Part shown: piece after piece, positions 3,130-31,001 of the stretch
Layout of the letters: each line of letters opens with the position of its first letter
Numbering within the stretch: the first letter of the stretch is position 1
Origin: Jiangella gansuensis DSM 44835
GTDB lineage: Bacteria; Actinomycetota; Actinomycetes; Jiangellales; Jiangellaceae
Assembly: GCF_000515395.1 (NCBI RefSeq)
Contig: NZ_KI911782.1
Coordinates: 1,713,090-1,777,089, forward strand
DNA: 64,000 nt
Reading direction: 5' to 3'
Position numbers and translations under genes: made by a program
Notes under the pieces: generated by a model
What the model was told of the DNA's origin: nothing
Databases searched by the model: none
Seen by the model: the letters and a program-made list of their open reading frames with translations, nothing else

Positions 3130-3135
3130 CGCATC

Positions 3136-4350: not shown

Positions 4351-4364
4351 CAGTGCGGTTCTGA

Positions 4365-10733: not shown

Positions 10734-10744
10734 AGGGGAATTGT

Positions 10745-10811: not shown

Positions 10812-10828
10812 GCGACGGAGGAAACATC

Positions 10829-11848: not shown

Positions 11849-11852
11849 CCCC

Positions 11853-11906: not shown

Positions 11907-11918
11907 AGAGGGGTCTGG

Positions 11919-12374: not shown

Positions 12375-12396
12375 GACCCGATCCTGCCACTGTGGG

Positions 12397-12426
12397 TAAG
12401 ATGGAGCCAGTTACTTGGACGTCCAA
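12397..12426 (+). promoter_or_regulatory. Mutase promoter with Rrf2-type dyad
   Basis: TAAGAT (12397-12402) is a plausible -10 for the mutase gene. Just downstream, TTGGACGTCCAA (12415-12426) is a perfect 12-bp palindrome in the untranslated leader, between the divergent Rrf2 and mutase genes. It is a candidate operator. Confidence 0.5.
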
Positions 12427-15463: not shown

Positions 15464-16877
15464 TGTGCGTTCCGGGGACATCGGTGACTATGTGTTCGGG
15501 GACATGGGCGACAGTTCGGGTGTTTGGCTTCCCCGTTGTTGAGTGTGCGCCTTGGTTCGCTGGTGTCAAGGTCGTTCGTCCTCGCTGCGCTGCGGGCGCT
15601 GCACCTTGACGCCTGCTCGCCGCGGCGCGTGCGGCGGTGACGGGGAACCGCCGGGGACGATGAAGGTGGTGATCTCGGCGGCGCCGTAGTAGACGTGCAG
15701 GCGGGCGCCGTGCTGGAGCAGGCCGACCTGGACGCCGGCGAATCGGCTGCCCAGCTCGTAGTGCCGGTTGCGGTAGCTGAACCCGCCGCCGTGGTTGGTG
15801 TGGCGCAGCACGGCGGCGGCGGGGAATGCCTCGGCGGGGTCGAGTTCGACGTGGGGCAGCAGCACCGGGGTGCCGCGGCGGTAGATCCGGGCGGGCACGT
15901 CACCGTCGAGTTCGTCGTGCGGGCGGGCGTGGTTGTACTCGTCGCGGTGCCGGTCCAGCAGGACCTGCAGCGCCGGTAGAGTGGCCGCGGGCGGTTGGTC
16001 TTGCAGCCATTCCCGCACGGTGGCGTGGCTGCGTTCGGCCTTGCCCTGGGTCTGCGGATGCCAGGCCCGGCCGTGACTCAACTCGATCCCGGCCGCCCGG
16101 GCCTGGCGTTCGAACTTCACCGTTGCGCCCTTCGTGCGGCCGGTGAAGGCCATGTCGTTGTCGGTCAGCAGCCGCGCCGGCAGCCCGACCGCGGCGACGG
16201 TGTCGGTCAGCAGGTGCCACGCCAGTTCGGTGCTCACCGTGTCCACCGCCCGGGACGCGATCAGGTACCGGGAGTGGTCGTCGAGGATGTCCAGCACCCA
16301 CGCCAGCCTCGCGTCATCCAGGACGTAGGCCCAGGCGTCGAGCTGCCACAGCAGGTTCGGCGCCCGGGCCCGGAACCGCCGCCACGCCTGCCCGGCGTTG
16401 CGCGCGGTGACGCCGGCGCCCAGCGCCTCGCCGTGGCGGACCAGCACCTGGTGGATCGTGGAGGCCGCAGGCAGCCGGCACCCGTCCAGCCGATCCGGTT
16501 CGGCCTGCAGTGCCCAGCGGATCTTCCGCGCGCCCCACCGCGGATGCTCCTTGCGCACCCGCAGGATCTCGTCTTCGACCCATTGCGGCAGCATCCACGG
16601 TGAGGACAACGGCCGACGCGAGCGCGGCACCAGCCCGGCCACCCCATCGTCGCGGTACCGCGACACATACCGTTGCATCGTCTGCCGGCACACCCCCAGA
16701 CAGGCCGCTGCTTCGGCACAGGTCAGCTCCCGCCGCAGCACCAAATCGACCAGATTCGCTCGAACGTCCACGACGTCCCACATCCCCACAGGTCCCATCC
16801 CTCCAGGATCGGACCATGATCAGGAACTGTCGCGTATGTCTCCGAACGTCCTGTCACACAAGTCCTCGGAACACACA
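15464..16877. mobile_element. IS481-family insertion sequence, complete, 1414 bp
   Basis: The left end starts TGTGCGTTCCGGGGACAT; the right end, read inward, starts TGTGTGTTCCGAGGACTT. The similarity of the two ends continues for about 55 bp, including the inner blocks GTTCGG-GACAT and GCGACAGTTC. The element is flanked on both sides by the 15-bp direct repeat ATCCCTTCCAAGGGG. It carries one intact transposase gene on the minus strand. Intact ends, an intact gene and an identical duplication point to recent insertion. Confidence 0.92.
15566..16798 (-). CDS. IS481-family transposase
   Basis: 410 aa, intact. The N-terminal HTH (LTCAEAAACLGVCRQTMQRYVSRY, about 25-48) is followed by a second HTH-like region (RWGARKIRWAL) and the rve/DDE integrase core: D154 in WQLDAW, D213 in TDNDMAF, and E255 in GKAERSH. 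The Mu-type C-terminal domain ends about residue 390, with a Pro/Arg-rich tail. It catalyses cut-and-paste or copy-out movement of its own IS. The second aspartate block reads TDND rather than the usual TDNG. The start ATG 16798 lies 80 bp inside the right IS end. Confidence 0.92.
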   Translation of the reverse strand: MGPVGMWDVVDVRANLVDLVLRRELTCAEAAACLGVCRQTMQRYVSRYRDDGVAGLVPRSRRPLSSPWMLPQWVEDEILRVRKEHPRWGARKIRWALQAEPDRLDGCRLPAASTIHQVLVRHGEALGAGVTARNAGQAWRRFRARAPNLLWQLDAWAYVLDDARLAWVLDILDDHSRYLIASRAVDTVSTELAWHLLTDTVAAVGLPARLLTDNDMAFTGRTKGATVKFERQARAAGIELSHGRAWHPQTQGKAERSHATVREWLQDQPPAATLPALQVLLDRHRDEYNHARPHDELDGDVPARIYRRGTPVLLPHVELDPAEAFPAAAVLRHTNHGGGFSYRNRHYELGSRFAGVQVGLLQHGARLHVYYGAAEITTFIVPGGSPSPPHAPRRAGVKVQRPQRSEDERP

Positions 16878-17268: not shown

Positions 17269-18273
17269 ATGAACCAGCGTCGTCGTCCGACGATCCACGA
17301 GGTCGCCAGGGTGGCCGGTGTGTCGATCTCCTCGGTCTCGCGCGCGCTGAACGGCAACACGTCCAACGCCGACATGGTGGCCCGGGTGAACGCGGCCGTT
17401 CAGGAAGTCGGCTACGCGCCCAGCGTGGTCGCCCAGTCGCTCAAGACGAAGCACACCGGTCAGGTCGCGTTCGCGATGGAGGACATCGGCAACGCCGCCT
17501 ACCTGGAGATGGTCCGGCGCATCCAGCCGACGCTGCGCGACGAGGGCTACCGGCTGTTGCTGCACAGCACCGGCGCCGACGTCGAGGACGAGCTCGGCGT
17601 GCTGGCCAGCCTCAGCCAGAACTACGTCGACGGGCTCATCCTCTGCCCGCTGCGGGTCACCGACCGGCACGTCGAGGCGCTGCGGGCCACCGCCGTGCCG
17701 GTGGTGGTCATCGGCCTGCTGCCCGACGACGTACCCGTCGACAACGTGCGGGCCGACTCCCGTGTGGGCGCGAGGGCCGCGGTCGAGCATCTGCACGAGA
17801 CCGGCGCCCGGCGCATCGCGTTCATCGACGGCCCACTCGACACCGTGCCCGGCCGGGCACGCTACGACGGCTACCGGATGGGCCTGGAGGCGTGCGGGCT
17901 GACGCCGGACGACCGGCTCATCCGGTTCGCCGACTTCCAGTTCGATGCGGGCCGGCACAGCGCCCGCGACCTCCTCACCGAGCACCCCGACGTCGACGCC
18001 GTCCTGGGCGCCAACGATCTGATCGCCATGGGCGTCCTGCACGCTCTGCGCGAGCTGGGCCGCGACGCCCCGGGCGACGTGCGCGTCGTCGGGATGGACG
18101 ACACCCCGCTCGCGGCCACCAGCTTCCCGCCACTGTCCAGCGTGTCGCTGGGCTCGGCCGACCGCGGCCGGATCGCTGCCGAGCTGCTGTTGCGGCGGAT
18201 GAACGGCGACGACGCGGCGCCGGAGCGGGTCACCGTCCCGCCGTCTCTGACCATCAGGGAGAGCAGCCGATGA
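17269..18273 (+). CDS. LacI/GalR-family repressor of the ARH/sugar operon
   Basis: 334 aa. The N-terminal HTH is PTIHEVARVAGVSISSVSRALNG (about 7-29) with a hinge helix near 50-60 (APSVVAQSLKTKHTG). A periplasmic-binding-protein-like sensor domain follows. GGGAGGAGG precedes ATG 17269. It is the first gene of the operon: its stop overlaps the permease start (ATGA). The effector is presumably the imported glycoside or a breakdown product. Confidence 0.9.
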   Translation: MNQRRRPTIHEVARVAGVSISSVSRALNGNTSNADMVARVNAAVQEVGYAPSVVAQSLKTKHTGQVAFAMEDIGNAAYLEMVRRIQPTLRDEGYRLLLHSTGADVEDELGVLASLSQNYVDGLILCPLRVTDRHVEALRATAVPVVVIGLLPDDVPVDNVRADSRVGARAAVEHLHETGARRIAFIDGPLDTVPGRARYDGYRMGLEACGLTPDDRLIRFADFQFDAGRHSARDLLTEHPDVDAVLGANDLIAMGVLHALRELGRDAPGDVRVVGMDDTPLAATSFPPLSSVSLGSADRGRIAAELLLRRMNGDDAAPERVTVPPSLTIRESSR

Positions 18274-19220
18274 GCGACACCGCCGTGGCTCCGGCGTCCA
18301 CGCAACCCCCTCCGGGCAAGCCTGCACCCGGCCGCCGGCGCGGCTGGCTCGGCCTCGACCGCGACGGGCTCATGCTCGCGGTCCCGGCGCTGATCCCGGT
18401 CGTGCTGTTCAGCGTCTACCCGCTGCTGCGCGGCATCTACCTGGGTTTCACCGACGCCCAGGCCGGCGCGAACGCCCAGACCAGCTTCACCGGGCTGGAG
18501 AACTACCGGAACCTGCTGGACGACTCGTACTTCTGGGAGTCGTTCCGGATCGGGCTGATCTGGGCGTTCTCGGTGACGATCCTGCAGTTCTTCGCCAGCC
18601 TCGGGCTGGCGCTCCTGCTCAACCAGCGGCTCCGGCTGCGCTGGCTGGCCCGCACACTGGCGCTGGTGCCGTGGGCGATGCCGCCGGTGGTCATCGGCAT
18701 CATGTGGCGGCTGGTGTACCACCCGAACGCCGGCATCCTCAACGACGTCCTGCTGGACCTGCGGATCATCGACGAGAACGTCGACTGGCTGTCGTCATTC
18801 TCGCTGGCGCTGCCCGCGGTGATCGTCGTCGGTGTCTGGGCCGGCATGCCGCAGACGACGGTGGTGCTGCTGGCCGGGCTGCAGAGCGTGCCGAAGGAAC
18901 TGCACGAGGCGGCGGCCATGGACGGCGCGAACGTCTGGCAGCGCTTCCGCAGTGTCACGTGGCCGGCCATCAAGCCCGTTGTCGTGGCCATGACGACGCT
19001 GGACTTCATCTGGAACTTCAACTCCTTCAGCTTGGTCTACGTGCTGACGGAGGGTGGTCCGGGCAGCGCGACCCGGCTGCCGTTGCTGTTCGCCTACGAG
19101 GAGGCGTTCCGGTACGGCAACTACGGCTACGCGGCGGCGCTGGGCAACGCGATGGTCATCGTGATCGCGGTCTTCGTCGTCTTCTATCTGCGCCAGCGGG
19201 TGAGGGAGGCGAACGACTAG
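18270..19220 (+). CDS. Sugar ABC transporter permease, MalF-type
   Basis: A 316-aa inner-membrane permease. After a Pro-rich cytoplasmic N-terminus there are six helices. The EAA loop that contacts the ATPase is visible as ELHEAAAMDGANVWQRFRSVTWP (about 213-235). The ATG overlaps the LacI stop, and its own TAG is followed at once by the next ATG, so the importer genes are tightly coupled. No dedicated ATPase gene is in the operon; a shared MsiK-like ATPase, as known in Streptomyces, is likely. Confidence 0.9.
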   Translation: MSDTAVAPASTQPPPGKPAPGRRRGWLGLDRDGLMLAVPALIPVVLFSVYPLLRGIYLGFTDAQAGANAQTSFTGLENYRNLLDDSYFWESFRIGLIWAFSVTILQFFASLGLALLLNQRLRLRWLARTLALVPWAMPPVVIGIMWRLVYHPNAGILNDVLLDLRIIDENVDWLSSFSLALPAVIVVGVWAGMPQTTVVLLAGLQSVPKELHEAAAMDGANVWQRFRSVTWPAIKPVVVAMTTLDFIWNFNSFSLVYVLTEGGPGSATRLPLLFAYEEAFRYGNYGYAAALGNAMVIVIAVFVVFYLRQRVREAND

Positions 19221-20057
19221 ATGAACCAGTCGAGACCCACGACGACGGCGCTGAAGTACGCCGCCCTCACGGCCTACCTGATCTTCCTGGCGTTTCCGCT
19301 GTTCTGGCTGATCTCGACGTCGCTGAAGACGCCGCAGGAGATCGCGCTGATCGAGCCGACGTGGATCCCGAACGAGATCACGTTCGACAACTTCCGGGCC
19401 GCGTTCGACGAGCAGCCCATCGTTCGGGCGATCCTCAACACGCTGCTGGTGGCCGGGGCGTCGTGTGCGATCACGGTGCTGTTGTCGATTCCGGCCGCCT
19501 ACGTCATGGCCCGGTACCGGTCGGTGCTGAGCCGGATGACGCTGGTGTGGGTGCTGCTCAGCCAGATCTTCCCGTTCATCCTGGTGATCATCCCGCTGTT
19601 CCTGCTGCTGCGGGACTTCGGCCTCTACGACACCTACATCGGGCTGATCATCGTCTACGTCGTCTGGAGCATGCCGTTCGCACTCTGGATGCTGCGCAGC
19701 TACGTCGCCACCATCCCGATCGAGCTGGAAGAGGCCGCGGCGATGGACGGTGCCTCGAAGGTGCGCACCCTGCGCAGCGTCATCGCGCCGCTGCTGGCAC
19801 CTGGGGTCGTCGCCGCCGGGCTGTTCGCGTTCGTGTCGGCGTGGAACGAGTTCCTGTTCGCCCTGGTCCTGATCCGCGACCCGGACCTGCAGACGCTGTC
19901 GTTGACCCTGGTGCGTTTCATCGGCGCGGAGGGCGTCGCCCGGCTCGGCCCGCTGGCGGCCGCGTCGCTCGTCGCCACCATTCCGAGCCTGATCTTCTTC
20001 GCCATCATGCAGCGCCGCCTGACCGGCGGGCTGCTGGGCGGAGCCGTCAAGTCATGA
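19221..20057 (+). CDS. Sugar ABC transporter permease, MalG-type
   Basis: A 278-aa permease with six predicted helices and an EAA loop IELEEAAAMDGASKVRTLRSVIAP (about 172-195). It pairs with the MalF-type protein directly upstream to form the transmembrane channel. Start ATG 19221 follows the previous stop with no gap. Confidence 0.9.
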   Translation: MNQSRPTTTALKYAALTAYLIFLAFPLFWLISTSLKTPQEIALIEPTWIPNEITFDNFRAAFDEQPIVRAILNTLLVAGASCAITVLLSIPAAYVMARYRSVLSRMTLVWVLLSQIFPFILVIIPLFLLLRDFGLYDTYIGLIIVYVVWSMPFALWMLRSYVATIPIELEEAAAMDGASKVRTLRSVIAPLLAPGVVAAGLFAFVSAWNEFLFALVLIRDPDLQTLSLTLVRFIGAEGVARLGPLAAASLVATIPSLIFFAIMQRRLTGGLLGGAVKS

Positions 20058-20095: not shown

Positions 20096-21406
20096 ATGCG
20101 TACCTTTCGAAGCGTCGCCGTCCTGGTGGCCGCGGGCTTGGTGCTCGCCGCCTGCGGCGACAGCGACGACGAGACCAGCTCCGGCGGCAACGGCGACGGT
20201 GGCGGTGGCGGCGAACCGGTCGACCTGACGTTCCAGACGCTGGCCTGGCAGACCGCGAGCGTCGAGGCGAACGAAGCCATCGTCGCGGCCTGGAACGAGG
20301 CCAACCCCGACATCCAGGTGGAACTGCTCCAGGGCGACTGGAACAACGTCCACGACCAGCTCATGACCTCCTTCGAGGGAGGCACCGCGCCGGACGTCTT
20401 CCACTACGAGTCCACGGTGCTGCAGGACTTCGGCGACCGCGGCAACGTCCTGGACCTGTCGGAGTACCTGTCCGACGAGATCCGCGACGACATCCGCGAG
20501 GGCGCCTGGGACACCGTCACGTTCGGCGACGCCGTCTACGGGGTGCCGTTCCTGCAGGAGTCGCAGGTGGTCTTCGCCAACCGGACGTTGCTGGAGGCGG
20601 CCGGGGTCCCACTGCCCACCGTTGACGACCCGTGGACGTGGGACGAGTTCGCCGACGTCGCCGCGCAGCTGACCACCGGCGGCCAGTACGGCGCCGTCGT
20701 CCCGCTGAGCGCCCCGGCCAACCGCATCCTCAACCTGGCGCGCAACTTCGGCGGCGACTACTTCACCGACCCGACCGGTGAGGCGCAGGCAGTGTTCGAG
20801 GAGGCCGACCAGGAGGTGCCGCGGCGCATCCACGAGATGCTCTACACCGACCAGTCCGCGTCGCCCGACGGCATCGGGATGTCGTCGGCGGATGCGCTGC
20901 CGGGCTTCTTCGCCGGGCAGTACGCGCTCCTCCCGGGCGCCATCTGGCTGCGTCAGCAGATCATCGAACAGGCGCCGGACGGGTTCGACTGGGTGACGTT
21001 GCCGGCGCTGGAGGGCGACAGCTCGGCGCAGGGCGCGGTCAGCCAGACGCTGTCGGTGTCGGCGGAGACCGAGCACCCGGAGGAGGCGGTGCAGTTCATC
21101 GAGTACTTCCTCAACGCCGAGAACCAGGTGCAGCTGGCGGCGGGTGACTGGCTGCTGCCGACGAGCCAGACCGCGGCGCAGAGCCCCGAGCTGAACGACC
21201 CGGCCACCGGCTGGGACGTCGCCGTCGCCACCGCCGACGACCTGGAGATGGCACCGTTCCAGCAGGTGAAGGGGTTCGAGGAGTGGAAGAGCCGGATCGC
21301 GAACCCGGCCTTCCAGGAGTACTTCAGCGACCAGATCTCCCTGGAGGAGCTCGGGACCAAACTGGTCGACGAAGGCAACGACATCCTCGAGCGCTACCAG
21401 CGCTGA
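20096..21406 (+). CDS. Extracellular sugar-binding lipoprotein of the ABC importer
   Basis: 436 aa. The signal peptide MRTFRSVAVLVAAGLVLAAC has a lipobox with Cys20, then a Gly/Asp/Ser linker, then a cluster-B (MalE-like) solute-binding fold (FQTLAWQTASVEANEAIVAAWNEANPDI ... FEGGTAPDVFHYEST). ATG 20096 is preferred over 20054 (which overlaps the previous stop) because AGGAGGAGGA lies 5 nt before it and because it gives a clean lipoprotein signal. The ligand is not predictable; the downstream ARH proteins and ribokinase suggest a riboside. Confidence 0.88.
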   Translation: MRTFRSVAVLVAAGLVLAACGDSDDETSSGGNGDGGGGGEPVDLTFQTLAWQTASVEANEAIVAAWNEANPDIQVELLQGDWNNVHDQLMTSFEGGTAPDVFHYESTVLQDFGDRGNVLDLSEYLSDEIRDDIREGAWDTVTFGDAVYGVPFLQESQVVFANRTLLEAAGVPLPTVDDPWTWDEFADVAAQLTTGGQYGAVVPLSAPANRILNLARNFGGDYFTDPTGEAQAVFEEADQEVPRRIHEMLYTDQSASPDGIGMSSADALPGFFAGQYALLPGAIWLRQQIIEQAPDGFDWVTLPALEGDSSAQGAVSQTLSVSAETEHPEEAVQFIEYFLNAENQVQLAAGDWLLPTSQTAAQSPELNDPATGWDVAVATADDLEMAPFQQVKGFEEWKSRIANPAFQEYFSDQISLEELGTKLVDEGNDILERYQR

Positions 21407-21415: not shown

Positions 21416-21475
21416 ACTTCTGGAGACTTATGCACCCGTCCGGGACGGTTTCGGCGTGCATAAGTCTCCAGAAGT
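21416..21475. terminator. 20-bp perfect hairpin between the ABC genes and the ARH genes
   Basis: 21416-21435 and 21456-21475 are perfect inverted repeats (arm begins ACTTCTGGAGACTTATGCAC). The loop holds a second hairpin CCGTCC-G-GGACGG. It lies between the binding-protein stop and the ribosome site of the first ARH gene, so it probably attenuates the operon at this point. Confidence 0.7.
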
Positions 21476-21483
21476 GGAGGGAC

Positions 21484-22443
21484 ATGATGAGGGACAGGGC
21501 GCGGGGCTGCCTGGTGGGGTTGGCCGTCGGCGACGCCATGGGCGCGCCGGCGGAGAACATGACGGCAGAAGCGATCGCGCAGCGGTGGGGCGAGGTGACG
21601 AGGTTCCTCACCGACCGGCCGTCGGGCACCGACGACACCGAATACGCGGCCTTCAGCGCCCTGCTCCTGCTCGAGCACGGTGCCTCCGTGACCAGCGAAC
21701 AGGTCGCCGACGCGTGGGTGGAGCACCTGGCCGGCCGGGAGGGCGGGTTCCCCGGCGCCGGGTTCAGTGAGCTCGGCACCATCGAGAACCTCCGGGCCGG
21801 GCTGCGACCGCCGGAGAGCGGCCGGCACCTGCATTCATGGAGCGACGGGCTGGCGATGCGGGCCGCGGTGCACGGGGTGTTCGCCGCCGGCGACCCGGCC
21901 GAGGCGGCCCGGCTGGCCACGATCGACGGCGCGGTGAGCCACGACGGCGAAGGCGTCCACGCCGGGGTCGCGGTGGCCGCCGCGGTGGCCGTCGCCATGA
22001 CGGGAACGGCGACGCCGCCCGACCTCGCGGCCGCCGCGCTGGCCGCCGTCCCACCCGACTCGTGGACGGCGCGGTCGCTGCGCTCGGCGCTGGACCACGC
22101 CGACGACCGGACCGCGCTGCTCGACGCCGTCGTCGTCCGCGCATACCCGTGGACCGATCTCGGCCCGGAGGCGGTGGCGTTGGCGTTCGCGGCGTTCCTG
22201 GCCGCGGACGGCGAGTTCTCCCGGGCCGTCACCGGCGCGGTGTCGATGGGCCGCGACGCCGACACCACCGCGGCCATCGCCGGGGCGCTGGCCGGTGCCT
22301 GCGGCGGCATCGAGGCGGTCCCGGCGCAGTGGCGCGACCGGATCGGAGCGGTCACGGGACGGTGCCTGGGCGACGTCGTGGCCGGGCTGCACCCCGTCGA
22401 CCTCGCCGACCGGCTCGCCGACCACCTGGAGGGACGCTCGTGA
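21484..22443 (+). CDS. ADP-ribosylglycohydrolase-family protein 1
   Basis: A 319-aa all-helical ARH-fold hydrolase. All metal and active-site motifs of the DraG/ARH family are present: VGDAMGAPAE (about 15-24), SGTDDTEYA (about 47-55) and the C-terminal GRDADTTAAIAGALAGA (about 259-275), which supply the Asp/Thr ligands for two Mg ions. These enzymes cleave the bond between a ribose C1 and its aglycone. In this operon a small-molecule riboside is a more likely substrate than ADP-ribosyl-protein. GGAGGGAC precedes tandem ATG codons at 21484 and 21487. Confidence 0.85.
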   Translation: MMRDRARGCLVGLAVGDAMGAPAENMTAEAIAQRWGEVTRFLTDRPSGTDDTEYAAFSALLLLEHGASVTSEQVADAWVEHLAGREGGFPGAGFSELGTIENLRAGLRPPESGRHLHSWSDGLAMRAAVHGVFAAGDPAEAARLATIDGAVSHDGEGVHAGVAVAAAVAVAMTGTATPPDLAAAALAAVPPDSWTARSLRSALDHADDRTALLDAVVVRAYPWTDLGPEAVALAFAAFLAADGEFSRAVTGAVSMGRDADTTAAIAGALAGACGGIEAVPAQWRDRIGAVTGRCLGDVVAGLHPVDLADRLADHLEGRS

Positions 22444-23498
22444 CCAGCAGGCTCGATCGACGCGCCGGCGCCCTGGTGGGCCTGGCCATCGGCGACGCGG
22501 TCGGCTGGCCAGCCGTCCGGCACCGCTCGGGGCTGCTGCCGCCGTGGACGCGCCGGCTCCACCGCGAGCTGGACACCTTCGCCGAAGCTCAGGACGTGAC
22601 GACGCTGCCGGTGCCGTTCGCGCTCAACCAGTCCACGGCGCCGCTGCGGCTGGGCCCGAGCGACGACGCGGAGTGGGTGGCGTGGACGGTGACAGGGCTG
22701 CTCGGCGCCGGCTCGCCTGACGGCCCCATCGGCCGGTCCGACGTGCACGGACGCTGGCGCGACGCCGCGACCGCGGGAGCCGTGCCGCGCGGGCGCATCA
22801 GCGTCGCGACGGCCGTCGACGCGCTGCGCCGCGACATCGACCCGCCGCAGACCGGGCACGACAACCCGCATCACTTCGACGACGCCGCCGCGGTCCGGGC
22901 CGTCGGCATCGGGCTGGTCGCGACGGACCCGCCGCAGGCCGCACGGCTGGCGGCGTGGGACGCCGAAGTCACCAACGCCGGCGACGGCCTGGCCGCCGCG
23001 CGGGTGATGGCAGAGACGGTGTCGCGACTGGTCGCCGGGGAGTCGCTGGCCACCGCCTGGGCCTCGGCCGCGGCCGGGCTGCCGGCGGACGGACTGCTCG
23101 CCGCGACGGTGCGCCGGGCGCTGGCCGCCACCGCGGACGCACACTCGCCGGCCGACGCGATCCCGCTGCTGGACGAGTTGGTCGACCACGTCTACAGCTA
23201 CGGCGTGGCGGCCGCCCAGACGCTGCCGGTCGCCGTCGCGCTCGCGCACGTCGCCGAACGAACCGGCGGCCGGCCGGTCGACGCCGTCACCGCCGCCGCC
23301 TGCCTGCCGACGCTGGCCGACAGCGCACCCGCGCTCACCGGCGCGCTGACCGGTGCGTCCGGTGGCGTGATGTCGCTGCCGGCGGCCTGGGAAGAACGCT
23401 GCCGGGTGCTGGCCGGATGCTGTGCGCCCGGACTGGCCGGAACCGACCTGGTCGACCTGGCCAGCCGCATCGAGGAAAGGACGATCCGTGACCAGTGA
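22440..23498 (+). CDS. ADP-ribosylglycohydrolase-family protein 2, degenerate active site
   Basis: 352 aa. The ARH fold is recognisable: GLAIGDAVGWPA near the N-terminus, SDDAEW in the place of TDDTxx, and a long helical body. The C-terminal Mg-binding block GRDxDTxA is replaced by TLADSAPALTGALTGASGG, so at least one ligand pair is lost. It may be a non-catalytic partner or have a shifted chemistry. GTG 22440 overlaps the previous stop (GTGA). It lies between two canonical relatives in the same operon. Confidence 0.75.
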   Translation: MTSRLDRRAGALVGLAIGDAVGWPAVRHRSGLLPPWTRRLHRELDTFAEAQDVTTLPVPFALNQSTAPLRLGPSDDAEWVAWTVTGLLGAGSPDGPIGRSDVHGRWRDAATAGAVPRGRISVATAVDALRRDIDPPQTGHDNPHHFDDAAAVRAVGIGLVATDPPQAARLAAWDAEVTNAGDGLAAARVMAETVSRLVAGESLATAWASAAAGLPADGLLAATVRRALAATADAHSPADAIPLLDELVDHVYSYGVAAAQTLPVAVALAHVAERTGGRPVDAVTAAACLPTLADSAPALTGALTGASGGVMSLPAAWEERCRVLAGCCAPGLAGTDLVDLASRIEERTIRDQ

Positions 23499-24660
23499 CG
23501 CGCTCGTGGACACCGCTGTCGGGTGCCTGACGGGGGCCGCCGTCGGCGACGCGCTCGGCGGGGCGACGGAGGGCTGGTCACCGCAGCAGATCCGGCAGCG
23601 CTGGGGCGGCTGGGTCGAGGGGATCGTCCCGCCGTACTACGACGACTGGCGCACCGCGCGGCCCATCGCGCCGTACCACAAGGGCGACGGCCACGTCACC
23701 GACGACACGTTGATGACGCACCTGATCGTCGAGGTGTACGAGCAGGCCGAAGCCCACCTGACCGCGTACGACATGGCCGAGCGGCTGGTGCCGCTGATGA
23801 TCGGCAAGCAGGTCTGGATCCCGGAGCTGGAGGCCGAGGCGCTGCCCTTGCAGCGGGTGTTCCTGGCCGAGAAGTACATCGCGCTGCGGTTGCACTGGGG
23901 GCACGCCGACCCGCGGGAGGCCGGCGTGGGCAACGCCGTCAACTGCGGCGCCGCCATGTACGTCGCACCGGTCGGCATCGTCAACGCCGCCGACCCGGAC
24001 GGCGCCTACGCCGAGGCCATCGACCTGGCCGGCGCCCACCAGTCGTCGTACGGCCGGGAAGCGGCCGGCGTCATGGCCGCCTGTGTGGCCGCGGCCGCCC
24101 GGCCCGGTGCCACCGTCGACGACGTGCTGGCCGCGGCGGTGCGGCTGGCGAAGGACGGGACGAAGGCCGGCATCGAGGCGGTCCTGGAGACCGCGGCCTC
24201 CATCGGGCATTGGACCGAGGCGGTCGAGTCCGGGAAGCTGCGCGCCGCGGTCGCGCCGTACGACACCGTCGGCGAGGACTACCGCGACCAGGGCCTGGGC
24301 GCGCGCCGGCCCAGCCGCATCCACACCATCGAGGAGCTGCCGGTCGCGCTGGGCATGCTGGCCATCGCCGGCGGAGACTGGCGGGAGGCGGTGCTCGGCG
24401 GCGTCAACTACGGCCGCGACTCCGACTCCATCGCGTCGATGGCCGGGGCGATCGCCGGCGCGCTCGGCGGGCGTCCGGCGGTGCCGGCGGACCTGGTGGA
24501 GGCGGTGGCGTCGGCCAGCCGGGTCGATCTGGTCGGGCCGGGGGAGCGGCTGGCCGCGGTGACGGCGCGGGTGCGGGCGGCGGACGCGGCCCGGCGGGCG
24601 GCGGCGGAGGCCGCATTCACTGAGCTGGCCCGTGATCATCAACCGTTGGACGAGCCGTGA
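23488..24660 (+). CDS. ADP-ribosylglycohydrolase-family protein 3
   Basis: 390 aa. Canonical motifs: AAVGDALGGATE (about 16-27), VTDDTLMTH (about 71-79) and NYGRDSDSIASMAGAIAGALGG (about 311-332). Both Mg-binding blocks are intact, so it should be active. The Trp/Tyr-rich segment PPYYDDWRTARPIAPYHKGDGH between the first two motifs marks a subfamily often found in sugar operons. GTG 23488 overlaps the upstream gene by 11 bp and follows GGAAAGG. The last codons are formed by the left arm of a hairpin. Confidence 0.85.
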   Translation: MTSDALVDTAVGCLTGAAVGDALGGATEGWSPQQIRQRWGGWVEGIVPPYYDDWRTARPIAPYHKGDGHVTDDTLMTHLIVEVYEQAEAHLTAYDMAERLVPLMIGKQVWIPELEAEALPLQRVFLAEKYIALRLHWGHADPREAGVGNAVNCGAAMYVAPVGIVNAADPDGAYAEAIDLAGAHQSSYGREAAGVMAACVAAAARPGATVDDVLAAAVRLAKDGTKAGIEAVLETAASIGHWTEAVESGKLRAAVAPYDTVGEDYRDQGLGARRPSRIHTIEELPVALGMLAIAGGDWREAVLGGVNYGRDSDSIASMAGAIAGALGGRPAVPADLVEAVASASRVDLVGPGERLAAVTARVRAADAARRAAAEAAFTELARDHQPLDEP

Positions 24661-24700: not shown

Positions 24701-26053
24701 ATGAGGCTGACGTGGGTTCAGCCGGAGGATCTGGTCGGGCACGCGCTCGCCCAGGCGGCGGAGGACGGCGTCGACGTCGCCGACCTACGGGAGCGCTGGG
24801 TCGAGGCCGGTGGCGATCCGGCACCGGCACCGTCCGGCGCATCGGACCGGCCAGCCCCGCCGCCGCTGCGGGCACTGGCCGGACAGGTGCTCGACGAGAT
24901 CGACGCCCGCCCTTCACGCTACGACGAGACCGAACCGACCGACCTGGCCGCCATCACCGCGCTGACCGGCGCCGCACCGGGCCCGGCCGCCGGGACGCCA
25001 CCGTCGTTCGACCGCGTGCACGGCGCCTGGCTCGGCCGCGCCGCCGGGTGCCTGCTCGGCAAGCCGGTCGAGAAGATCCCGCGCCGAGGCATCCGCGAGA
25101 TCCTGGAGGCCACCGGCCGCTGGCCGCTCGCCGGCTGGTTCACCGCGCGCGGCCTGCCCGACGACGTCGCCGCCCGTTGGCCGTGGAACCGGCGCAGCGC
25201 ACCGACCAGCCTGGCCGAGAACATCGACGGGATGCCCGAGGACGACGACCTCAACTTCCCGCTGCTGAACCTCGCGCTCCTCGAGGACCGCGGCGCCGCC
25301 TTCGCCACCGACGACGTCGCGCAGAGCTGGCTGTCCGCGCTGCCGGCCGGCCGCGTGTTCACCGCCGAGCGGGTCGCGTACCGCAATCTCCTGCTCGGCC
25401 ACCTGCCGCCGGTCACCGCGCGGGTGCGCAACCCGTTCCGCGACTGGATCGGCGCGCAGATCCGCGGCGACGTGTTCGGCTGGGTCAGCCCCGGCGATCC
25501 CGCCCGGGCGGCGGAGCTGGCCTGGCGCGACGCCGTGCTCAGCCACACCCGCAACGGCGTCTACGGTGAGATGTTCGTGGCCGCGGCCTGTTCGGCGGCG
25601 CTGGTGGCGTCGTCCGTGGACGAGGTTCTCGACGCCGGGCTCTCGGTGGTGCCGCGGGCGTCGCGGTACGCCGAGGCGGTCCGGTTCGCGCGCTCCGCGG
25701 CCTCCGGCGAACCCGACTGGGAAGCCGTCGTCGACCGGATCGAGCAGCGCTACGGGCACCTGCACTGGGTGCACGTGCTGAACAACGCGGCCCTGGTGGT
25801 CGCCGCGCTGGTGTACGGCGACGGCGACCTCGAACGCACCATCACCGCGGTCGTCGCCGGCGGCTGGGACACCGACTCCAACGGCGCCACCGCCGGGTCA
25901 GTCGCCGGCGCGCTGACCGGAGCCGCGGCGCTGCCGGCTCGCTGGGTCGAACCCCTGCACAACCGGCTCACCACCTCTCTCAGCGGCTTCGACGGCATCG
26001 GCTTCGACGAGCTGGCCCGCCGCACGGTGAAGGTCGCGGAGGTTCTCGCATGA
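24701..26053 (+). CDS. ADP-ribosylglycohydrolase-family protein 4 with N-terminal extension
   Basis: 450 aa, about 100 residues longer than the others. An N-terminal part (1-100), starting RLTWVQPEDLVGHALAQAAEDG, precedes the ARH-like domain. The first motif reads GRAAGCLLGKPVE (Cys replaces the Asp of GDxxG), the second is PEDDDLNF, and the third is GGWDTDSNGATAGSVAGALTGA. It belongs to the divergent ARH branch with WDTDSN in place of GRDADT. The chemistry is therefore uncertain, but the conserved Asp cluster suggests an enzyme. The stop overlaps the ribokinase start. Confidence 0.8.
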   Translation: MRLTWVQPEDLVGHALAQAAEDGVDVADLRERWVEAGGDPAPAPSGASDRPAPPPLRALAGQVLDEIDARPSRYDETEPTDLAAITALTGAAPGPAAGTPPSFDRVHGAWLGRAAGCLLGKPVEKIPRRGIREILEATGRWPLAGWFTARGLPDDVAARWPWNRRSAPTSLAENIDGMPEDDDLNFPLLNLALLEDRGAAFATDDVAQSWLSALPAGRVFTAERVAYRNLLLGHLPPVTARVRNPFRDWIGAQIRGDVFGWVSPGDPARAAELAWRDAVLSHTRNGVYGEMFVAAACSAALVASSVDEVLDAGLSVVPRASRYAEAVRFARSAASGEPDWEAVVDRIEQRYGHLHWVHVLNNAALVVAALVYGDGDLERTITAVVAGGWDTDSNGATAGSVAGALTGAAALPARWVEPLHNRLTTSLSGFDGIGFDELARRTVKVAEVLA

Positions 26054-26943
26054 TCGCGATCCTGGGCAGCGCCAACATGGATCTCGTCGTCACCGTCGAA
26101 CGGGCGCCCGGTCGCGGCGAGACCGTCACCGGCCGCACGTTCGACACCGTCCCCGGCGGCAAGGGCGCCAACCAGGCGCTCGCCGCGGCCCGTGCCGGGG
26201 GCGACGTGGCCTTCCTCGGCGCCGTCGGCGACGACGACTTCGGGCGCCGCATCACCGGCCTGCTCACCGAGGCCGGCATCGACGTGTCCGGCCTGGCGGT
26301 GAGCGACCAGCCCACCGGGACCGCCCACATCACCGTCGACGCGACCGGCGACAACTCCATCGTCGTCGTGCCGGGCGCCAACGGTACGGTGGCCGCGCTC
26401 ACCGACGCGCACCGCGCCGGGATCGACGCTGCCGACCTGCTGCTGCTCCAGCTGGAGCTGCCGCTGCCGCTGGTGCTCGACGCGGCGGGGTACGCCCGCT
26501 CGCGCGGTGTGCGGGTCGTGCTGACGCCGGCGCCGGCGGTTCCGCTGCCGGACGAACTGCTCGACGCCGTCGACGTGCTGGTGCCGAACGAGCACGAGGC
26601 CGCGTTGCTGGCCGGGGTCGACGACCCGGTCGCTGCAGCCCGCGCCCTCGCGGCGCGCGGCGGCGACGTCGTCGTGACACTCGGAGCGAAGGGTGCGCTG
26701 CGGCTGCACGACGGTGACGAATGGCGGGTGCCGGCGTTCCCTGTCGACGCCGTGGACACGACGGCGGCCGGTGACACGTTCGTCGGGGTGCTGGCCGTCG
26801 GCCTGGCCGAAGGCTCCGCGTGGGCAGAGGCCCTGCGCCGGGCCGCCGCGGCCGCAGCGCTGTCCGTCCAGCGGCCGGGAGCGTCGTCGTCGATGCCGCA
26901 CCGGGCCGAGATCGACACGTTCCTGACGGAGGTTCCGGCATGA
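26050..26943 (+). CDS. Ribokinase-like PfkB sugar kinase
   Basis: 297 aa. The PfkB signatures are complete: PGGKGANQALAAARAGG (about 35-51), VPNEHEA (N180, E183) and DTTAAGDTF with the catalytic base D242. Length and motifs fit ribokinase, which phosphorylates D-ribose to ribose-5-phosphate. The ATG overlaps the stop of ARH protein 4, so the product released by an ARH could be phosphorylated at once. Related sugars or nucleosides remain possible. Confidence 0.85.
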   Translation: MIAILGSANMDLVVTVERAPGRGETVTGRTFDTVPGGKGANQALAAARAGGDVAFLGAVGDDDFGRRITGLLTEAGIDVSGLAVSDQPTGTAHITVDATGDNSIVVVPGANGTVAALTDAHRAGIDAADLLLLQLELPLPLVLDAAGYARSRGVRVVLTPAPAVPLPDELLDAVDVLVPNEHEAALLAGVDDPVAAARALAARGGDVVVTLGAKGALRLHDGDEWRVPAFPVDAVDTTAAGDTFVGVLAVGLAEGSAWAEALRRAAAAAALSVQRPGASSSMPHRAEIDTFLTEVPA

Positions 26944-28943
26944 TCGACCCGCGCTTCACCCCGTACGTGCCGCGGCCCATCGACCGGCCGGCCACCGTCC
27001 CGCTCGAGCCGGACGCCGACCTGAGCGTGCTGGACGAGGCGAAGATCTTCGCCGCACCCGACGACCCCGCGGACTGGCCGGCCTGGCGGGCCGCGTTGAC
27101 CCGGTGGCGCGCGGAGGCGCGGGCCCGCGTCGGCTACGACGGCTCGCGCTACCAGGTGGAGCCCGCGGACGGGTTCGTCGTCGCACTCACCTGGCTGTGG
27201 GACGAACTGCTCTACGACCACGACGCCGGCCGGTTCGACGTCGACGGCTACCTGGCCGCCGCCGAGCGGGACTTCGGCGGCTTCGACGGCGTCGTCCTGT
27301 GGCACGCCTACCCGAACGAGGGCATCGACCAGCGCGACCAGTTCGCGTTCTTCGACGTGCCGGAGCTGCCCGACGTGGTGGCCCGGTTCCACGAGCACGG
27401 CGTGCGGGTGTTCGTCTCGTACTACCCGTGGGAAGACCGGCCGAGACACAGTTCTACGTCGGGGACGCAGGTGTCCAGTGCCGACGTCCTTGTCGAGCTG
27501 GTCGATCGGCTCGGTGCCGACGGCGTCTTCCTGGACAGCTCCAAGGAGGGCTCCACGCAGATCCGGGCCGCCCTGGACGCGCTGCGGCCGGGTCTGGCGA
27601 TGGAGGGGGAGTCCCGGCTGCCGCTGGCCCGCATCCACGACCACACGATGTCGTGGGCGCAGTGGTTCGCCGACTCCACGGTCCCCGGTGTACTCCGGGC
27701 CACCTGGTTCGAGCGCCGGCACATCCTGCACCACACTCGCCGCTGGAACCACGGTCACGTCCACGAGCTGCAGTCGGCCTGGCTGAACGGCTCCGGCGTG
27801 CTGGTGTGGGAGACGGTGTTCGGCGTGTGGGTCGGCTGGAGCGCCCGCGACCGGGCCCTGCTGCGCTCGATGCGCCGGGTGCAGCGGGAGTACCGGGCCT
27901 GGCTGCAGAGCGAGGACTGGACGCCGCTGGCCGACCACCCCGGCGGCGACGTGCCGGTGTACGCCTCACGGTGGGAGCACGACGGCGTCGCGCTGTGGAC
28001 CGTGGTCAACCGCGGCGGCGAGTACGACGGTCCGTGGCTCGCGACCTCGGTGCCGGCGGGCACGACGTTCACGGAGCTGACCACCGGTGTCGCGCTCTCG
28101 GTGAGCAAGGACGACGAGGGCCGGACGGTGATCGGCGGCCCGTTGCCGGCCGGCGGGGTCGCGGCGGTCGTCGCGGCGAACGTGGCACCGGGCACGGCCG
28201 GGACGGACGACGACGCGACGTTCCCGCTGCGGGTGGCGTCGCGGGTCCCACCCCGCCCGGCACCCGTGCTGCCGTCGGCGGCGGTTCCGGCCGAGCTGGC
28301 CGTGGTCGACGGTGGCCGGCACGACCTCGTCGTCCGGTTCCGGGTCCGCGAGACCGGGTTGTACGGCGAGGCTCCCTACGTCGACGAATGGAAGCCGCTG
28401 CCGCCACGCCTGCACGCTGCCGGCACCGCGCACCGGCGGGTTCATCTCGGGCCGTTCGCGATCGGCCGCGCCGAGGTCACCAACGACGAGTTCGCCGCGT
28501 TCCTCGCCGCCACCGGCTACCGGCCGGCGCGGCCGGAGCGGTTCCTGGCGCACTGGGTCGACGGCGCCCCGCCGGCCGGCCGCGGAGCCGAACCCGTCAC
28601 GTACGTCGACCTCGCCGACGCCCGCGCCTACGCTCGCTGGGCCGCTGCCCGGCTGCCCACCGAGGACGAGTGGCAGGTGGCCGGCGAGGCCGGGCTGCTC
28701 GACCGCGGCCGGCCGGTGGTCTGGAACCTCACCGAGAGCGAGCACACGGACGGGCGGACCCGCTTCGTCATCCTCAAGGGCGGCAGCGACTTCCGCTCGA
28801 CCGGCTCGCACTGGTACTTCGACGGCGGCGTCCGCGAGCCCGAGTTCTCCGCCAAGTACCTGCTCATGGGCGCGGGCCTGGACCGCTCGCCGTCCATCGG
28901 GTTCCGCTGCGCCGTCGATCTCGGCGAGGAGGCTTCGCAATGA
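26940..28943 (+). CDS. Glycosidase-like TIM-barrel fused to an FGE-like (SUMF1) domain
   Basis: 667 aa. Residues about 50-330 look like a (beta/alpha)8 glycoside-hydrolase barrel: FDGVVLWHAYPNEGIDQRDQ, VRVFVSYYPWE, GADGVFLDSSKEGSTQI and GLAMEGES, which could supply catalytic Asp and Glu. A beta-sandwich-like middle (about 345-430) follows. Residues about 500-660 are a formylglycine-generating-enzyme-like C-type-lectin fold (IGRAEVTNDEFAAFLAATGY, RLPTEDEW, VILKGGSDFR, SIGFRCAVD). The paired copper-binding cysteines of true FGE are absent, so it should not make formylglycine. No signal peptide, so cytoplasmic. The ATG overlaps the ribokinase stop. Function unknown. Confidence 0.7.
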   Translation: MIDPRFTPYVPRPIDRPATVPLEPDADLSVLDEAKIFAAPDDPADWPAWRAALTRWRAEARARVGYDGSRYQVEPADGFVVALTWLWDELLYDHDAGRFDVDGYLAAAERDFGGFDGVVLWHAYPNEGIDQRDQFAFFDVPELPDVVARFHEHGVRVFVSYYPWEDRPRHSSTSGTQVSSADVLVELVDRLGADGVFLDSSKEGSTQIRAALDALRPGLAMEGESRLPLARIHDHTMSWAQWFADSTVPGVLRATWFERRHILHHTRRWNHGHVHELQSAWLNGSGVLVWETVFGVWVGWSARDRALLRSMRRVQREYRAWLQSEDWTPLADHPGGDVPVYASRWEHDGVALWTVVNRGGEYDGPWLATSVPAGTTFTELTTGVALSVSKDDEGRTVIGGPLPAGGVAAVVAANVAPGTAGTDDDATFPLRVASRVPPRPAPVLPSAAVPAELAVVDGGRHDLVVRFRVRETGLYGEAPYVDEWKPLPPRLHAAGTAHRRVHLGPFAIGRAEVTNDEFAAFLAATGYRPARPERFLAHWVDGAPPAGRGAEPVTYVDLADARAYARWAAARLPTEDEWQVAGEAGLLDRGRPVVWNLTESEHTDGRTRFVILKGGSDFRSTGSHWYFDGGVREPEFSAKYLLMGAGLDRSPSIGFRCAVDLGEEASQ

Positions 28944-28975
28944 GCACCCATACGCACCGCCGGTGGGCCGCGTGA
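28940..28975 (+). CDS. Possible 11-codon coupling ORF
   Basis: ATG at 28940 overlaps the previous stop (ATGA) and encodes MSTHTHRRWAA. Its TGA (28973-28975) overlaps the ATG of the CoA transferase (TGATG). Such a relay would carry ribosomes from one gene to the next. It may be fortuitous; no product is claimed. Confidence 0.3.
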   Translation: MSTHTHRRWAA

Positions 28976-30162
28976 TGAGCGGGCCGCTGACCGGGTTGCG
29001 GGTCGTCGACGCCGCGACGCTGTTCGCCGGGCCGATCGCCGCGATGCACCTGGGCGACCTGGGTGCCGACGTCGTCAAGGTCGAGCACCCACGCCGGCCG
29101 GACCCGTCCCGCGGCCACGGTCCGGCGAAGGACGGGCACAACCTGTGGTGGAAGACGCTGGGGCGCAACAAGCGAACGATGACGCTGGACCTGTCCCAGG
29201 AGCGCGGCCAGGACGTGTTCCGGCGACTGGCTCGCGAGTCCGACGTCGTCATCGAGAACTTCCGGCCGGACACCCTGGAACGGTGGAACCTCGGCTACGA
29301 CCGGCTGGCGGCGGACAACCCCGGGCTGATCCTGGCCCGCGTCACCGGGTTCGGGCAGGTCGGCCCGTACCGTCGCCGGCCCGGGTTCGGCACCCTGGCG
29401 GAGGCGATGAGCGGGTTCGCCGCCATGACCGGTGAGCCGGACGGACCACCGACGCTGCCCCCGTTCGGGCTGGCCGACGGCATCACGGCGCTGGCCACCG
29501 CGTTCGCCGTCACCTCGGCGCTGCACGCTCGAGTGGCGAGCGGCGTCGGTCAGGTGGTCGATCTCGCCATCATCGAGCCGATGCTGTCGGTGCTGGGGCC
29601 GCAGATCACCCGGTGGGACCAGCTCGGCACGGTGCAGCCGCGCACCGGCAACCGCTCGGCCAACAACGCCCCGCGCAACACCTACCGCACCGCCGACGGC
29701 CGGTGGGTCGCCGTGTCCACCAGCTCGCAGAGCATCGCCGAGCGGGTGATGCGGCTGGTCGGGCGGCCGGACGTGGTGGACGAGCCGTGGTTCGCCACCG
29801 GCGCCGGCCGGGCCGAGCACGTCGACGAGCTCGACGCCGCCGTCGGTGCCTGGGTCGCCGCGCGCAGCCGCGACGAGGTCGTGGCCGCCTTCGAGAAGGC
29901 CGAGGCAGCGGTCGCGCCGGTGTACGACGCGTCGGACATCGTGGCCGACCCGCAGCTGGCAGCGCTGGGCACCGTCCTGGAGGTCGAGGACGACGACCTG
30001 GGACCGGTCGCGATGCAGAACGTGCTGTTCCGGCTGTCCGAGACGCCGGGGGCGGTGCGCTGGCCGGGCCGGGCCCACGGCGCGGACACCGAGCTCGTTC
30101 TCGCGGAGCTGGGATACGGCGAGGCCGAGATCGCGGCGCTGCGGTCGGACGGTGTCGTGTGA
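28975..30162 (+). CDS. Family III (CaiB/BaiF) CoA transferase
   Basis: 395 aa. Typical family III sequence: LRVVDAATLFAGPIAAMHLGDLGADVVKVEHP, IENFRPDTLERW, and the catalytic Asp D168 in FGLADGI. These dimers move CoA between carboxylic acids through an aspartyl-CoA intermediate. The ATG overlaps the stop of the 11-codon ORF. A CitE-type lyase follows at once, which suggests a two-step sequence: activation of an organic acid, then carbon-carbon cleavage. The link to the upstream ARH and ribokinase steps is by operon position only. Confidence 0.85.
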   Translation: MSGPLTGLRVVDAATLFAGPIAAMHLGDLGADVVKVEHPRRPDPSRGHGPAKDGHNLWWKTLGRNKRTMTLDLSQERGQDVFRRLARESDVVIENFRPDTLERWNLGYDRLAADNPGLILARVTGFGQVGPYRRRPGFGTLAEAMSGFAAMTGEPDGPPTLPPFGLADGITALATAFAVTSALHARVASGVGQVVDLAIIEPMLSVLGPQITRWDQLGTVQPRTGNRSANNAPRNTYRTADGRWVAVSTSSQSIAERVMRLVGRPDVVDEPWFATGAGRAEHVDELDAAVGAWVAARSRDEVVAAFEKAEAAVAPVYDASDIVADPQLAALGTVLEVEDDDLGPVAMQNVLFRLSETPGAVRWPGRAHGADTELVLAELGYGEAEIAALRSDGVV

Positions 30163-31001
30163 GCCCGCCCGTGTTGACCTTGCTCTACGTGCCGGCCGAC
30201 CGGCCCGATCGGGCCCGCAAGGCGCTGGCCTCGCGCGCGGACGTCGTGATCCTTGACCTGGAGGACGCGGTGGCGCCGGCGGCCAAGGAGGCGGCCCGCG
30301 CGGGCCTTGCCGGCCTGCTGGAGTCCGCGACCGGCCGGCCGGTGCAGGTGCGGGTCAACGCGGTCTCGACGCCGTGGGGAGCCGCCGATCTGGCGACGGT
30401 GACCGAGCTGCCGCCGTCGGTGTCGGTGCGGGTGCCGAAGGTGCAGACACCGGCGGACGTGGCGGCCGTGCGGGACGCGGCCGGCGACCGGCCCGTGCAC
30501 GTGCTGCTGGAGACAGCTGCCGGGGTCGAGGCGGCCTTCGCAATCGCCTCCGCGCCCGGCGTCGCGTCCATCGGGCTGGGTGAGGCCGACCTCGCCTCCG
30601 ACCTGGGCGTCGTCGACGACGGTGACGGCTTGGCCTGGTGTCGGCAACGGCTGGTGGTCGCGGCCCGCGCGGCCGGGCTGCCGCCCCCGGCGATGGCGGT
30701 GTGGACCGACCTTGGCGACCCCGATGGTCTCGCGGCGTCCTGCCGGCAGGGACGGCGGCTGGGCTTCGTCGGCCGGGCCGCGATCCACCCCAAGCAGCTG
30801 CCTGTCATCGAGGCCGCGTTCCAGCCGTCCGACGCCGACGTCCGGCGCGCTACCGAGGTGGTCGAGGCCGTGGCCTCGGCGGCCGAGGCGGGTTCGGGCA
30901 CCGCTGTGTTGCCGAGCGGCCGCTTCGTCGACGTCGCCATGGTGGAGCAGGCCCGGCGGGTCCTCGCCCTCGCCTCCCGCACCGCCGCCCACTCCAGTTG
31001 A
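30159..31001 (+). CDS. HpcH/HpaI (CitE-like) CoA-ester lyase
   Basis: 280 aa. The CitE/malyl-CoA lyase fold is marked by LLYVPADRPDRARKALAS, VVILDLEDAVAP, the metal-binding Glu in VLLETAAGV and Asp in GLGEADLASDLG, and the C-terminal GFVGRAAIHPKQLPVI. These enzymes cleave 3-hydroxyacyl-CoA such as malyl-, citramalyl- or methylmalyl-CoA to acetyl- or propionyl-CoA plus an oxoacid. GTG 30159 overlaps the CoA transferase stop. It is the last gene of the LacI-controlled operon; a hairpin begins inside its final codons. Confidence 0.85.
   Translation: MSPPVLTLLYVPADRPDRARKALASRADVVILDLEDAVAPAAKEAARAGLAGLLESATGRPVQVRVNAVSTPWGAADLATVTELPPSVSVRVPKVQTPADVAAVRDAAGDRPVHVLLETAAGVEAAFAIASAPGVASIGLGEADLASDLGVVDDGDGLAWCRQRLVVAARAAGLPPPAMAVWTDLGDPDGLAASCRQGRRLGFVGRAAIHPKQLPVIEAAFQPSDADVRRATEVVEAVASAAEAGSGTAVLPSGRFVDVAMVEQARRVLALASRTAAHSS

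Follow-up and report, generated by a model that had tools for sequence, protein, structure and literature searches.

A glycosidase-like barrel fused to a cysteine-less FGE-like domain in a riboside-type operon of Jiangella gansuensis

What is the role of a protein that joins a glycosidase-like barrel to the fold of FGE (SUMF1), when the copper cysteines of FGE are not there? The question is raised by a gene in a 64,000 nt stretch of DNA from Jiangella gansuensis DSM 44835 (contig NZ_KI911782.1, positions 1,713,090–1,777,089; this whole stretch is called the window). The open reading frame (ORF) called by the initial annotation is present on the forward strand with an ATG start, and encodes a protein of 667 amino acids (aa) (Table 1). 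Models and sequence comparisons favor, with a probability of roughly 0.55, a cytosolic glycoside hydrolase (GH) of an unclassified family, which would have the FGE-like domain as a fixed accessory module and would act in the catabolism of an imported, probably acylated, riboside-type conjugate. Unclassified here means by Pfam, NCBIfam and PDB sequence searches.

The fusion combines known folds in a new way; its barrel is unclassified, and literature searches gave no description of its operon. These searches covered titles and abstract openings, and among the matches listed there was no paper on the fusion or its operon; the architecture, which the initial annotation allowed might be already characterized, was not found there. 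Two annotated homologues carry the generic label "SUMF1/EgtB/PvdO family nonheme iron enzyme".

Architecture and distribution

The AlphaFold2 model of the full fusion, made with 41 aligned relatives as input, has a mean predicted local distance difference test (pLDDT) value of 88.5 and a predicted template modeling (pTM) score of 0.90. It displays, with confidence, the canonical strand order of a (beta/alpha)8 barrel (strands at residues 80–85, 117–121, 156–161, 195–198, 220–224, 237–241, 262–266 and 286–289). A beta-sandwich at 326–411 follows, then a linker, and then the FGE-like domain. No signal peptide is obvious in the window protein (MIDPRF..., judged by eye), and therefore the fusion should act inside the cell.

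The joining of the barrel to the FGE-like domain is a fixed architecture. The initial annotation had proposed a search for other proteins with this arrangement, and 80 colinear relatives were found: a scan of a genome collection confirmed 107 relatives among 127 pattern-matched stretches, and the 80 that were kept each match at least 633 of the 667 residues. The hosts are Actinomycetota and Alphaproteobacteria, with one Anaerolineales assembly. A near full-length relative is present in 16 of 60 related genomes, the window's own included. Separate profiles of the two parts were run over 40 related genomes, and each found the same 16, at coinciding positions (E ≤1.1e-163 for the barrel and ≤1.4e-94 for the FGE part); in some genomes only part of the first-look candidates was scored. 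The next matches beyond these 16 have E values of 6.6e-18 (FGE part) and 0.047 (barrel). The possibility of a fusion artefact in a single genome is rejected, given the 80 relatives of near full length and the joint presence of both halves in 16 of the 40 genomes. Among 396 sampled genomes of the phylum, profile A2 matched one (the window's own), a count that probably understates the spread because only four candidates were scored per listed genome.

In one of the 80 relatives (L076) the match is split over two frames. In locus L116 (positions 1724–5635, genome G035) one frame of 1304 aa has a ribokinase (residues 316–614) followed by the fusion protein (626–1284), which represents a possible natural further fusion. 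Locus L115 (8817–11471, minus strand, genome G005, same genus) has a second fusion subfamily that is about 46% identical.

The barrel and its candidate active site

A hydrolase-like barrel had been proposed from the segments FLDSSKE and MEGES, and the fold matches are of the glycosidase type. Residues ~28–415 align by VIA-align with Z scores of 16.6–19.5 over 294–353 residues, with a root mean square deviation (rmsd) of 3.5–5.0 and 9–16% identity (50 matches listed). The majority of the 50 are GH13 enzymes and a few are GH129 or GH36; the family labels are in part presumed by us, that of GH36 among them. The top row is an alpha-amylase-type (GH13) enzyme (Z 19.5, 331 residues, rmsd 3.9, 14% identity). 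Also among the matches listed are a 3,6-anhydro-D-galactosidase (GH129, Z 18.8) and galactosaminidase/SpAga enzymes (GH36, Z 16.6–18.2), and the Foldseek listing includes GH29 fucosidases.

The initial annotation had allowed for a well-known N-terminal family, but sequence searches with the barrel in Pfam, NCBIfam and the PDB gave nothing credible; a designed protein (E 0.0004) and a MarR regulator (E 0.32) in the PDB searches were taken as chance. In Pfam the window barrel is unmatched and FGE-sulfatase is the sole domain recognized in the 667-aa protein. The alpha-amylase profile PF00128 matches neither the fusion protein nor any of 36 barrel sequences, and the GH36, GH29 and GH129 family profiles have no Pfam match to the barrel. 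GHL6 (PF14871) gives a weak hint in two of the 36 sequences (best E 0.047, under the family cut-off); seven Pfam families in all have weak matches in this set, six of them in a single member each. An hhalign comparison of the barrel gives 41.6% for GHL6 (7 sequences) and 26.0% for GH13 (15 sequences), compared with 0.1–0.3% for five control families of the same operon and 0.1% each for GH36 and GH29. From the model and these comparisons, we place the barrel as a distant relative among the glycosidase TIM barrels, outside GH13.

The candidate catalytic residues are D199 at the C-terminal end of strand beta-4 and E224 at that of beta-5. Each is kept in all 41 aligned relatives, and each is kept in 15 of 15 sequences of a set that includes two distant relatives at 33–37% identity, one from Spirosoma and one from a Sphingopyxis plasmid. 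Position in the model and invariance together indicate that D199 is likely the nucleophile and E224 likely the acid/base. In GH13, the nucleophile is at the end of beta-4 and a Glu acid/base at the end of beta-5, an Arg is found two residues before the nucleophile, and a third catalytic Asp is at beta-7.

Several observations weigh against a glycosidase function. The position two before D199 is F197 in 41 of 41 relatives, in place of the GH13 Arg, and residues 262–269 have no conserved Asp among the 41 (judged by alignment); the GH13 mechanism is therefore not simply transferable to this barrel. Identity to the listed solved glycosidases is 9–16%, and a common fold does not prove function. In the profile comparison, GHL6 and GH13 show weak similarity to the barrel, and GH36 and GH29 show none. 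In addition, the CD98 heavy chain, whose barrel we take to be non-enzymatic, is among the listed VIA-align matches.

The missing arginine, which could mean an altered mechanism, bears on a second reading, in which the barrel is a transglycosidase, isomerase, phosphorylase or lyase of the same fold. Transferases and isomerases are known among GH13-like barrels, and branching enzymes and GlgE are found in the fold listing. However, the operon looks catabolic, with an importer, a kinase, a CoA-transferase and a lyase, and the distant homologues sit among hydrolases, such that we consider a non-hydrolase barrel unlikely.

The FGE-like domain

The fold claimed for the C-terminal part is recovered both by sequence and by model. 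FGE-sulfatase PF03781 matches residues 498–596 (E 3.3e-20; 73.2 bits, cut-off 23.3). The domain modeled alone (pLDDT 87.4) has the FGE fold and aligns with CalU17, SUMF2 and FGE at VIA-align Z 15.1–16.2 over 178–187 residues, and SUMF2 is the first match in a PDB profile search with this part (E 1.7e-24). The FGE/SUMF1 signatures RLPTExEW, GGS and GFR are present. NCBIfam matches in this part (SenA, EgtB, PvdO and OvoA) are all below their cut-offs, e.g., EgtB with 48 bits against 360.

The copper cysteines are absent, as the initial annotation had stated. In a comparison with nine FGE-like proteins, drawn from the window's genome and from related ones, seven of the nine have the cysteine pair in the form GGSx[LM]CxxxYC, where the window fusion reads GGSDFRSTGSHWY. 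Among the 41 relatives, none has two cysteines in residues 612–632, eight have one and 33 have none. The single cysteine of the window fusion is within GFRC, a position with a cysteine in 32 of 41 relatives. A feature beyond those in the initial annotation is the loss of a segment of ~30 residues, which reads NGYGLYDMxGNVWEW in other FGE-like proteins and is gone from the window fusion save VWNLT; in FGE, this segment presumably holds calcium ligands. It is absent from the window clade, present in the Spirosoma homologue (L118) and partial in that of Sphingopyxis (L117), and was therefore probably lost within the fusion family. Judged from its residues, the domain should be unable to carry out the copper chemistry of FGE. 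A role in sulfatase maturation is rejected: the domain has neither the cysteine pair nor the GLYDMxGNVW segment, and a separate gene in the window's genome encodes an FGE-like protein in which both cysteines are present (G000:C1:3252390–3253241).

Nonsynonymous (dN) and synonymous (dS) divergence was compared in 21 pairs of seven relatives over four protein regions. Between the window fusion and that of L034, dN and dS are 0.095 and 0.429 for the barrel plus sandwich, 0.113 and 0.461 for the FGE-like part, 0.050 and 0.429 for a motif ahead of the FGE-like domain (the RETG motif), and 0.519 and 0.468 for the linker. Across the 21 pairs the barrel and FGE-like values are alike, with dN of the FGE-like part at times somewhat higher (e.g., 0.247 versus 0.176). 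In the linker, dN exceeds dS in two pairs and is lower in 19. Columns conserved at 95% or more number 82 of 385 in the barrel plus sandwich and 48 of 168 in the FGE-like part. Purifying selection is similar in both domains, and the FGE-like domain is thus not decaying; a decaying FGE remnant is rejected on the dN, dS and column counts.

The RETG motif, RETGxYxxAPYVDEWKPLPPRLH, is the region with the lowest dN in every one of the 21 pairs. It is highly conserved, yet has partly low pLDDT in the models of both the full fusion and the FGE-like domain alone. Together these properties would fit a loop that becomes ordered when substrate or a partner chain is present.

For FGE-like folds without the cysteines, the initial annotation had named oxidases, carbohydrate binders and other activities. 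The evidence leans toward a non-oxidative module, and selection and conservation point to one that most likely binds or completes an active site. D604, R608, S623 and W625 are present in all 41 relatives and are invariant in the 15-sequence set with the distant homologues, as residues of an active site would be. This is a point in favor of another reading, a bifunctional enzyme in which the FGE-like domain is a cysteine-less PvdO-type oxidase/dehydrogenase, or a new metal site, that acts on the product of the barrel. PvdO, called a dihydropyoverdine dehydrogenase by NCBIfam, is in the fold listing of the domain (Z 14.8, 172 residues, rmsd 2.9), and redox genes are found near some relatives: FAD-type oxidoreductases (L106 and L111), an aldo/keto reductase and a GFO/IDH/MocA protein (L079), and dehydrogenases (L117). 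However, the PvdO sequence match is weak (E 0.0048; 16 bits against an NCBIfam equivalog cut-off of 500), Pfam lists no EgtB-like DinB-type iron-binding domain in the fusion, the GLYDMxGNVW segment is absent from the clade, and there is no redox enzyme among the identified operon genes of the window. We therefore consider an oxidative second activity unlikely as well.

It is less probable still that the whole fusion is a non-catalytic binding protein, as we presume the CD98 heavy chain barrel and pFGE/SUMF2 to be. Both of these appear in the searches, CD98hc in the barrel fold listing and SUMF2 at the head of the PDB profile search with the FGE-like part, but the acidic residues D199 and E224 stay invariant even in widely diverged sequences. 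For the FGE-like domain alone, a binding role overlaps with the hydrolase reading preferred here.

The operon, its substrate and known systems

The fusion gene is encoded in a riboside-type operon, in agreement with the initial annotation: a LacI regulator closest to RbsR, a sugar ATP-binding cassette (ABC) importer, four ADP-ribosylglycohydrolase-family (ARH) genes and a ribokinase (Table 1). The ribokinase and fusion genes overlap by ATGA. A CoA-transferase/CitE-lyase pair, not included in the initial annotation, follows the fusion, and the in-frame ATG of the class III CoA-transferase is 31 nt after the fusion gene. ARHb has the motif SDDAEW but not the second metal motif GxDxDS/T, unlike the other three ARH proteins, and may therefore be catalytically dead. 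Upstream of the LacI regulator, an ORF at 15566–16798 (minus strand) reads, by eye, like an insertion sequence (IS) transposase with an integrase core.

Table 1. Coordinates of the fusion gene, its parts and its operon in the window, with the number of loci, of the 80 with a kept relative, that have a relative of each neighboring gene.
Feature	Position	Strand	Loci (of 80)	Remark
LacI-family regulator	17281–18273 (start approximate)	+	54	best NCBIfam model RbsR, below cut-off
Sugar ABC importer permease 1	18303–19220 (start approximate)	+	59	
Sugar ABC importer permease 2	19221–20057	+	73	
ABC solute-binding protein	20117–21406 (start approximate)	+	72	
ADP-ribosylglycohydrolase-family protein a (ARHa)	21463–22443 (start approximate)	+	9	
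ADP-ribosylglycohydrolase-family protein b (ARHb)	22443–23498 (start approximate)	+	10	
ADP-ribosylglycohydrolase-family protein c (ARHc)	23488–24660 (start approximate)	+	75	
ADP-ribosylglycohydrolase-family protein d (ARHd)	24701–26053	+	76	
Ribokinase	26050–26943	+	74	NCBIfam TIGR02152, 312.4 (cut-off 299.65)
Fusion protein, 667 aa, ATG start	26940–28943	+		barrel, beta-sandwich, linker and cysteine-less FGE-like domain; 80 colinear relatives
(beta/alpha)8 barrel, residues ~28–325	27021–27914	+		AlphaFold2 model secondary structure, fold matches
Codon of D199, candidate nucleophile	27534–27536	+		C-terminal end of beta-4 (FLDSSKE); position from model
Codon of E224, candidate acid/base	27609–27611	+		C-terminal end of beta-5 (MEGES); position from model
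C-terminal beta-sandwich of glycosidase part, residues ~326–412	27915–28175	+		model strands 326–411; fold matches to ~415
Linker, residues 413–455, fast-evolving	28176–28304	+		1/43 columns conserved ≥95%
Motif RETGLYGEAPYVDEWKPLPPRLH and flanks, residues 465–493	28332–28418	+		directly N-terminal of FGE-like domain; 12/29 columns conserved ≥95%
FGE/SUMF1-like domain, residues 494–661	28419–28922	+		without copper cysteines and GLYDMxGNVW segment
Class III CoA-transferase (CaiB type)	28975–30162	+	76	PF02515 E 1.1e-119
CitE/HpcH-type lyase	30156–31001 (start approximate)	+	76	best NCBIfam model itaconate-degradation lyase RipC, below cut-off

The neighborhoods of the 80 relatives were compared with flanks up to 8 kb, some ended by contig ends, and with gene distances extrapolated from alignments. 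The ribokinase is 150 nt or less upstream of the fusion in 73 loci; in L075 it is on the opposite strand. The CoA-transferase is 200 nt or less downstream in 51 loci, 787–2,502 nt downstream in 22, upstream in three and not found in four. A scan of five of the 22 inserts between the fusion and the CoA-transferase gave a putative esterase (PF00756) in each. In L072, an esterase gene precedes the fusion. The inserted esterases of L041 (9938–12088), L050 (9931–12291) and L076 (9931–11928) have ~375–415 extra residues with weak matches to SBBP beta-propeller repeats. Locus L072 also encodes, at 1774–3867, a protein of 698 aa in which an ADP-ribosylglycohydrolase domain spans residues 14–300 and the last 398 residues match no Pfam family at E 0.01.

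A riboside-type substrate is suggested by the combination of importer, ADP-ribosylglycohydrolase family and ribokinase. The CoA-transferase and CitE-type lyase, joined in some relatives by the esterase, point to a hydroxy-acid on the sugar. Ribosides with citramalate, malate or 3-hydroxy-3-methylglutarate were considered, as were furanosides of D-arabinan or rhamnogalacturonan II; both groups are tentative leads. The second group is considered in view of GH127, GH28 and a sub-threshold DUF4185 match near distant relatives. The distant Sphingopyxis homologue is near a ribokinase, GH127 and a CoA-transferase, and that of Spirosoma is near GH28 and, farther away, GH36. In L115, the fusion gene of the second subfamily has as neighbors a GH3 gene and the DUF4185 match below cut-off, which is in a different frame; the other called genes of this locus bear no resemblance to operon genes of the window.

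Not all neighborhoods fit a single riboside pathway. Four of the 80 loci are without the CoA-transferase and seven are without an adjacent ribokinase. In L106 and L111 (Kribbella) only the ribokinase is found beside the fusion, with no CoA-transferase, and the next scanned gene (10754–12418 and 10033–11622, respectively) encodes a FAD-dependent oxidoreductase-type protein. The neighborhood of L110 has GH116, glucuronate isomerase and tagaturonate epimerase, and because of these uronate genes the sugar may differ between subfamilies.

In the preferred reading, the D199/E224 barrel, which has a GH13-like fold, would remove a sugar from the conjugate brought in by the ABC importer, and the FGE-like domain and RETG motif would help bind the substrate or complete the active site. 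The ADP-ribosylglycohydrolase-type proteins might next cut the (ribo)furanosyl bond, and the ribokinase would phosphorylate the freed ribose. The hydroxy-acid part, released in some relatives by the neighboring esterase, would be degraded by the CoA-transferase and CitE-type lyase. A more specific proposal is tentative: that the fusion represents a new GH family in which the cysteine-less FGE-like domain and the RETG...PPRLH motif are in the active site, and that the operon serves an undescribed catabolism of acylated ribosyl conjugates. The fusion would then remove an outer sugar, the esterase where present would free the hydroxy-acid for the CoA-transferase and CitE lyase, and the ADP-ribosylglycohydrolase-family enzymes would cut the ribofuranoside and thus act on small molecules. 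If true, this adds an unclassified glycosidase family hidden by generic annotation, and the FGE fold gains a role in sugar breakdown without redox chemistry.

Among known systems, GH13 (clan GH-H) and its fold neighbors GH129, GH36 and GH29 have, like the fusion, a (beta/alpha)8 barrel followed by a beta-sandwich. We take GH13 to share with the fusion an acidic residue at the end of beta-4 and a Glu at the end of beta-5. The fusion differs from GH13 in the added FGE-like domain, the lack of a Pfam match, F197 and the apparent lack of a conserved beta-7 Asp. FGE/SUMF1 has the fold (Z ~15–16) and the RLPTExEW, GGS and GFR signatures in common with the fusion, which is without both copper cysteines and the GLYDMxGNVW segment. 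SUMF2/pFGE, the best PDB profile match, has the same FGE fold; it is presumably also without the cysteines, has no barrel and is an animal secretory-pathway protein.

In the sulfoxide/selenoxide synthases EgtB, SenA and OvsA an FGE-like domain is joined to another domain, as in the fusion, and EgtB chains are the top Foldseek matches. The partner domain in these enzymes is an iron-binding DinB-type domain, whereas in the fusion it is the glycosidase-like barrel. PvdO, ToxD, CalU17 and CarF are FGE-like folds from other pathways (Z 13.6–16.2), and their chains of 261–316 residues are too short for an added barrel.

A parallel in gene order is yegTUV of E. coli. Unlike the window operon, its 16 kb region has no fusion protein, CoA-transferase or CitE lyase annotated, and its transporter is predicted to be of the major facilitator superfamily (MFS) type (PMC10819704), whereas the window importer is of the ABC type. 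However, yegTUV has a transporter, an ADP-ribosylglycohydrolase-family protein and a sugar kinase in a row, comparable to the trio in the window, and the same paper describes none of the three proteins as having a clear function (PMC10819704). The window operon would be a tractable system for studying how ADP-ribosylglycohydrolase-family proteins act on small molecules, a question that is also raised at yegTUV.

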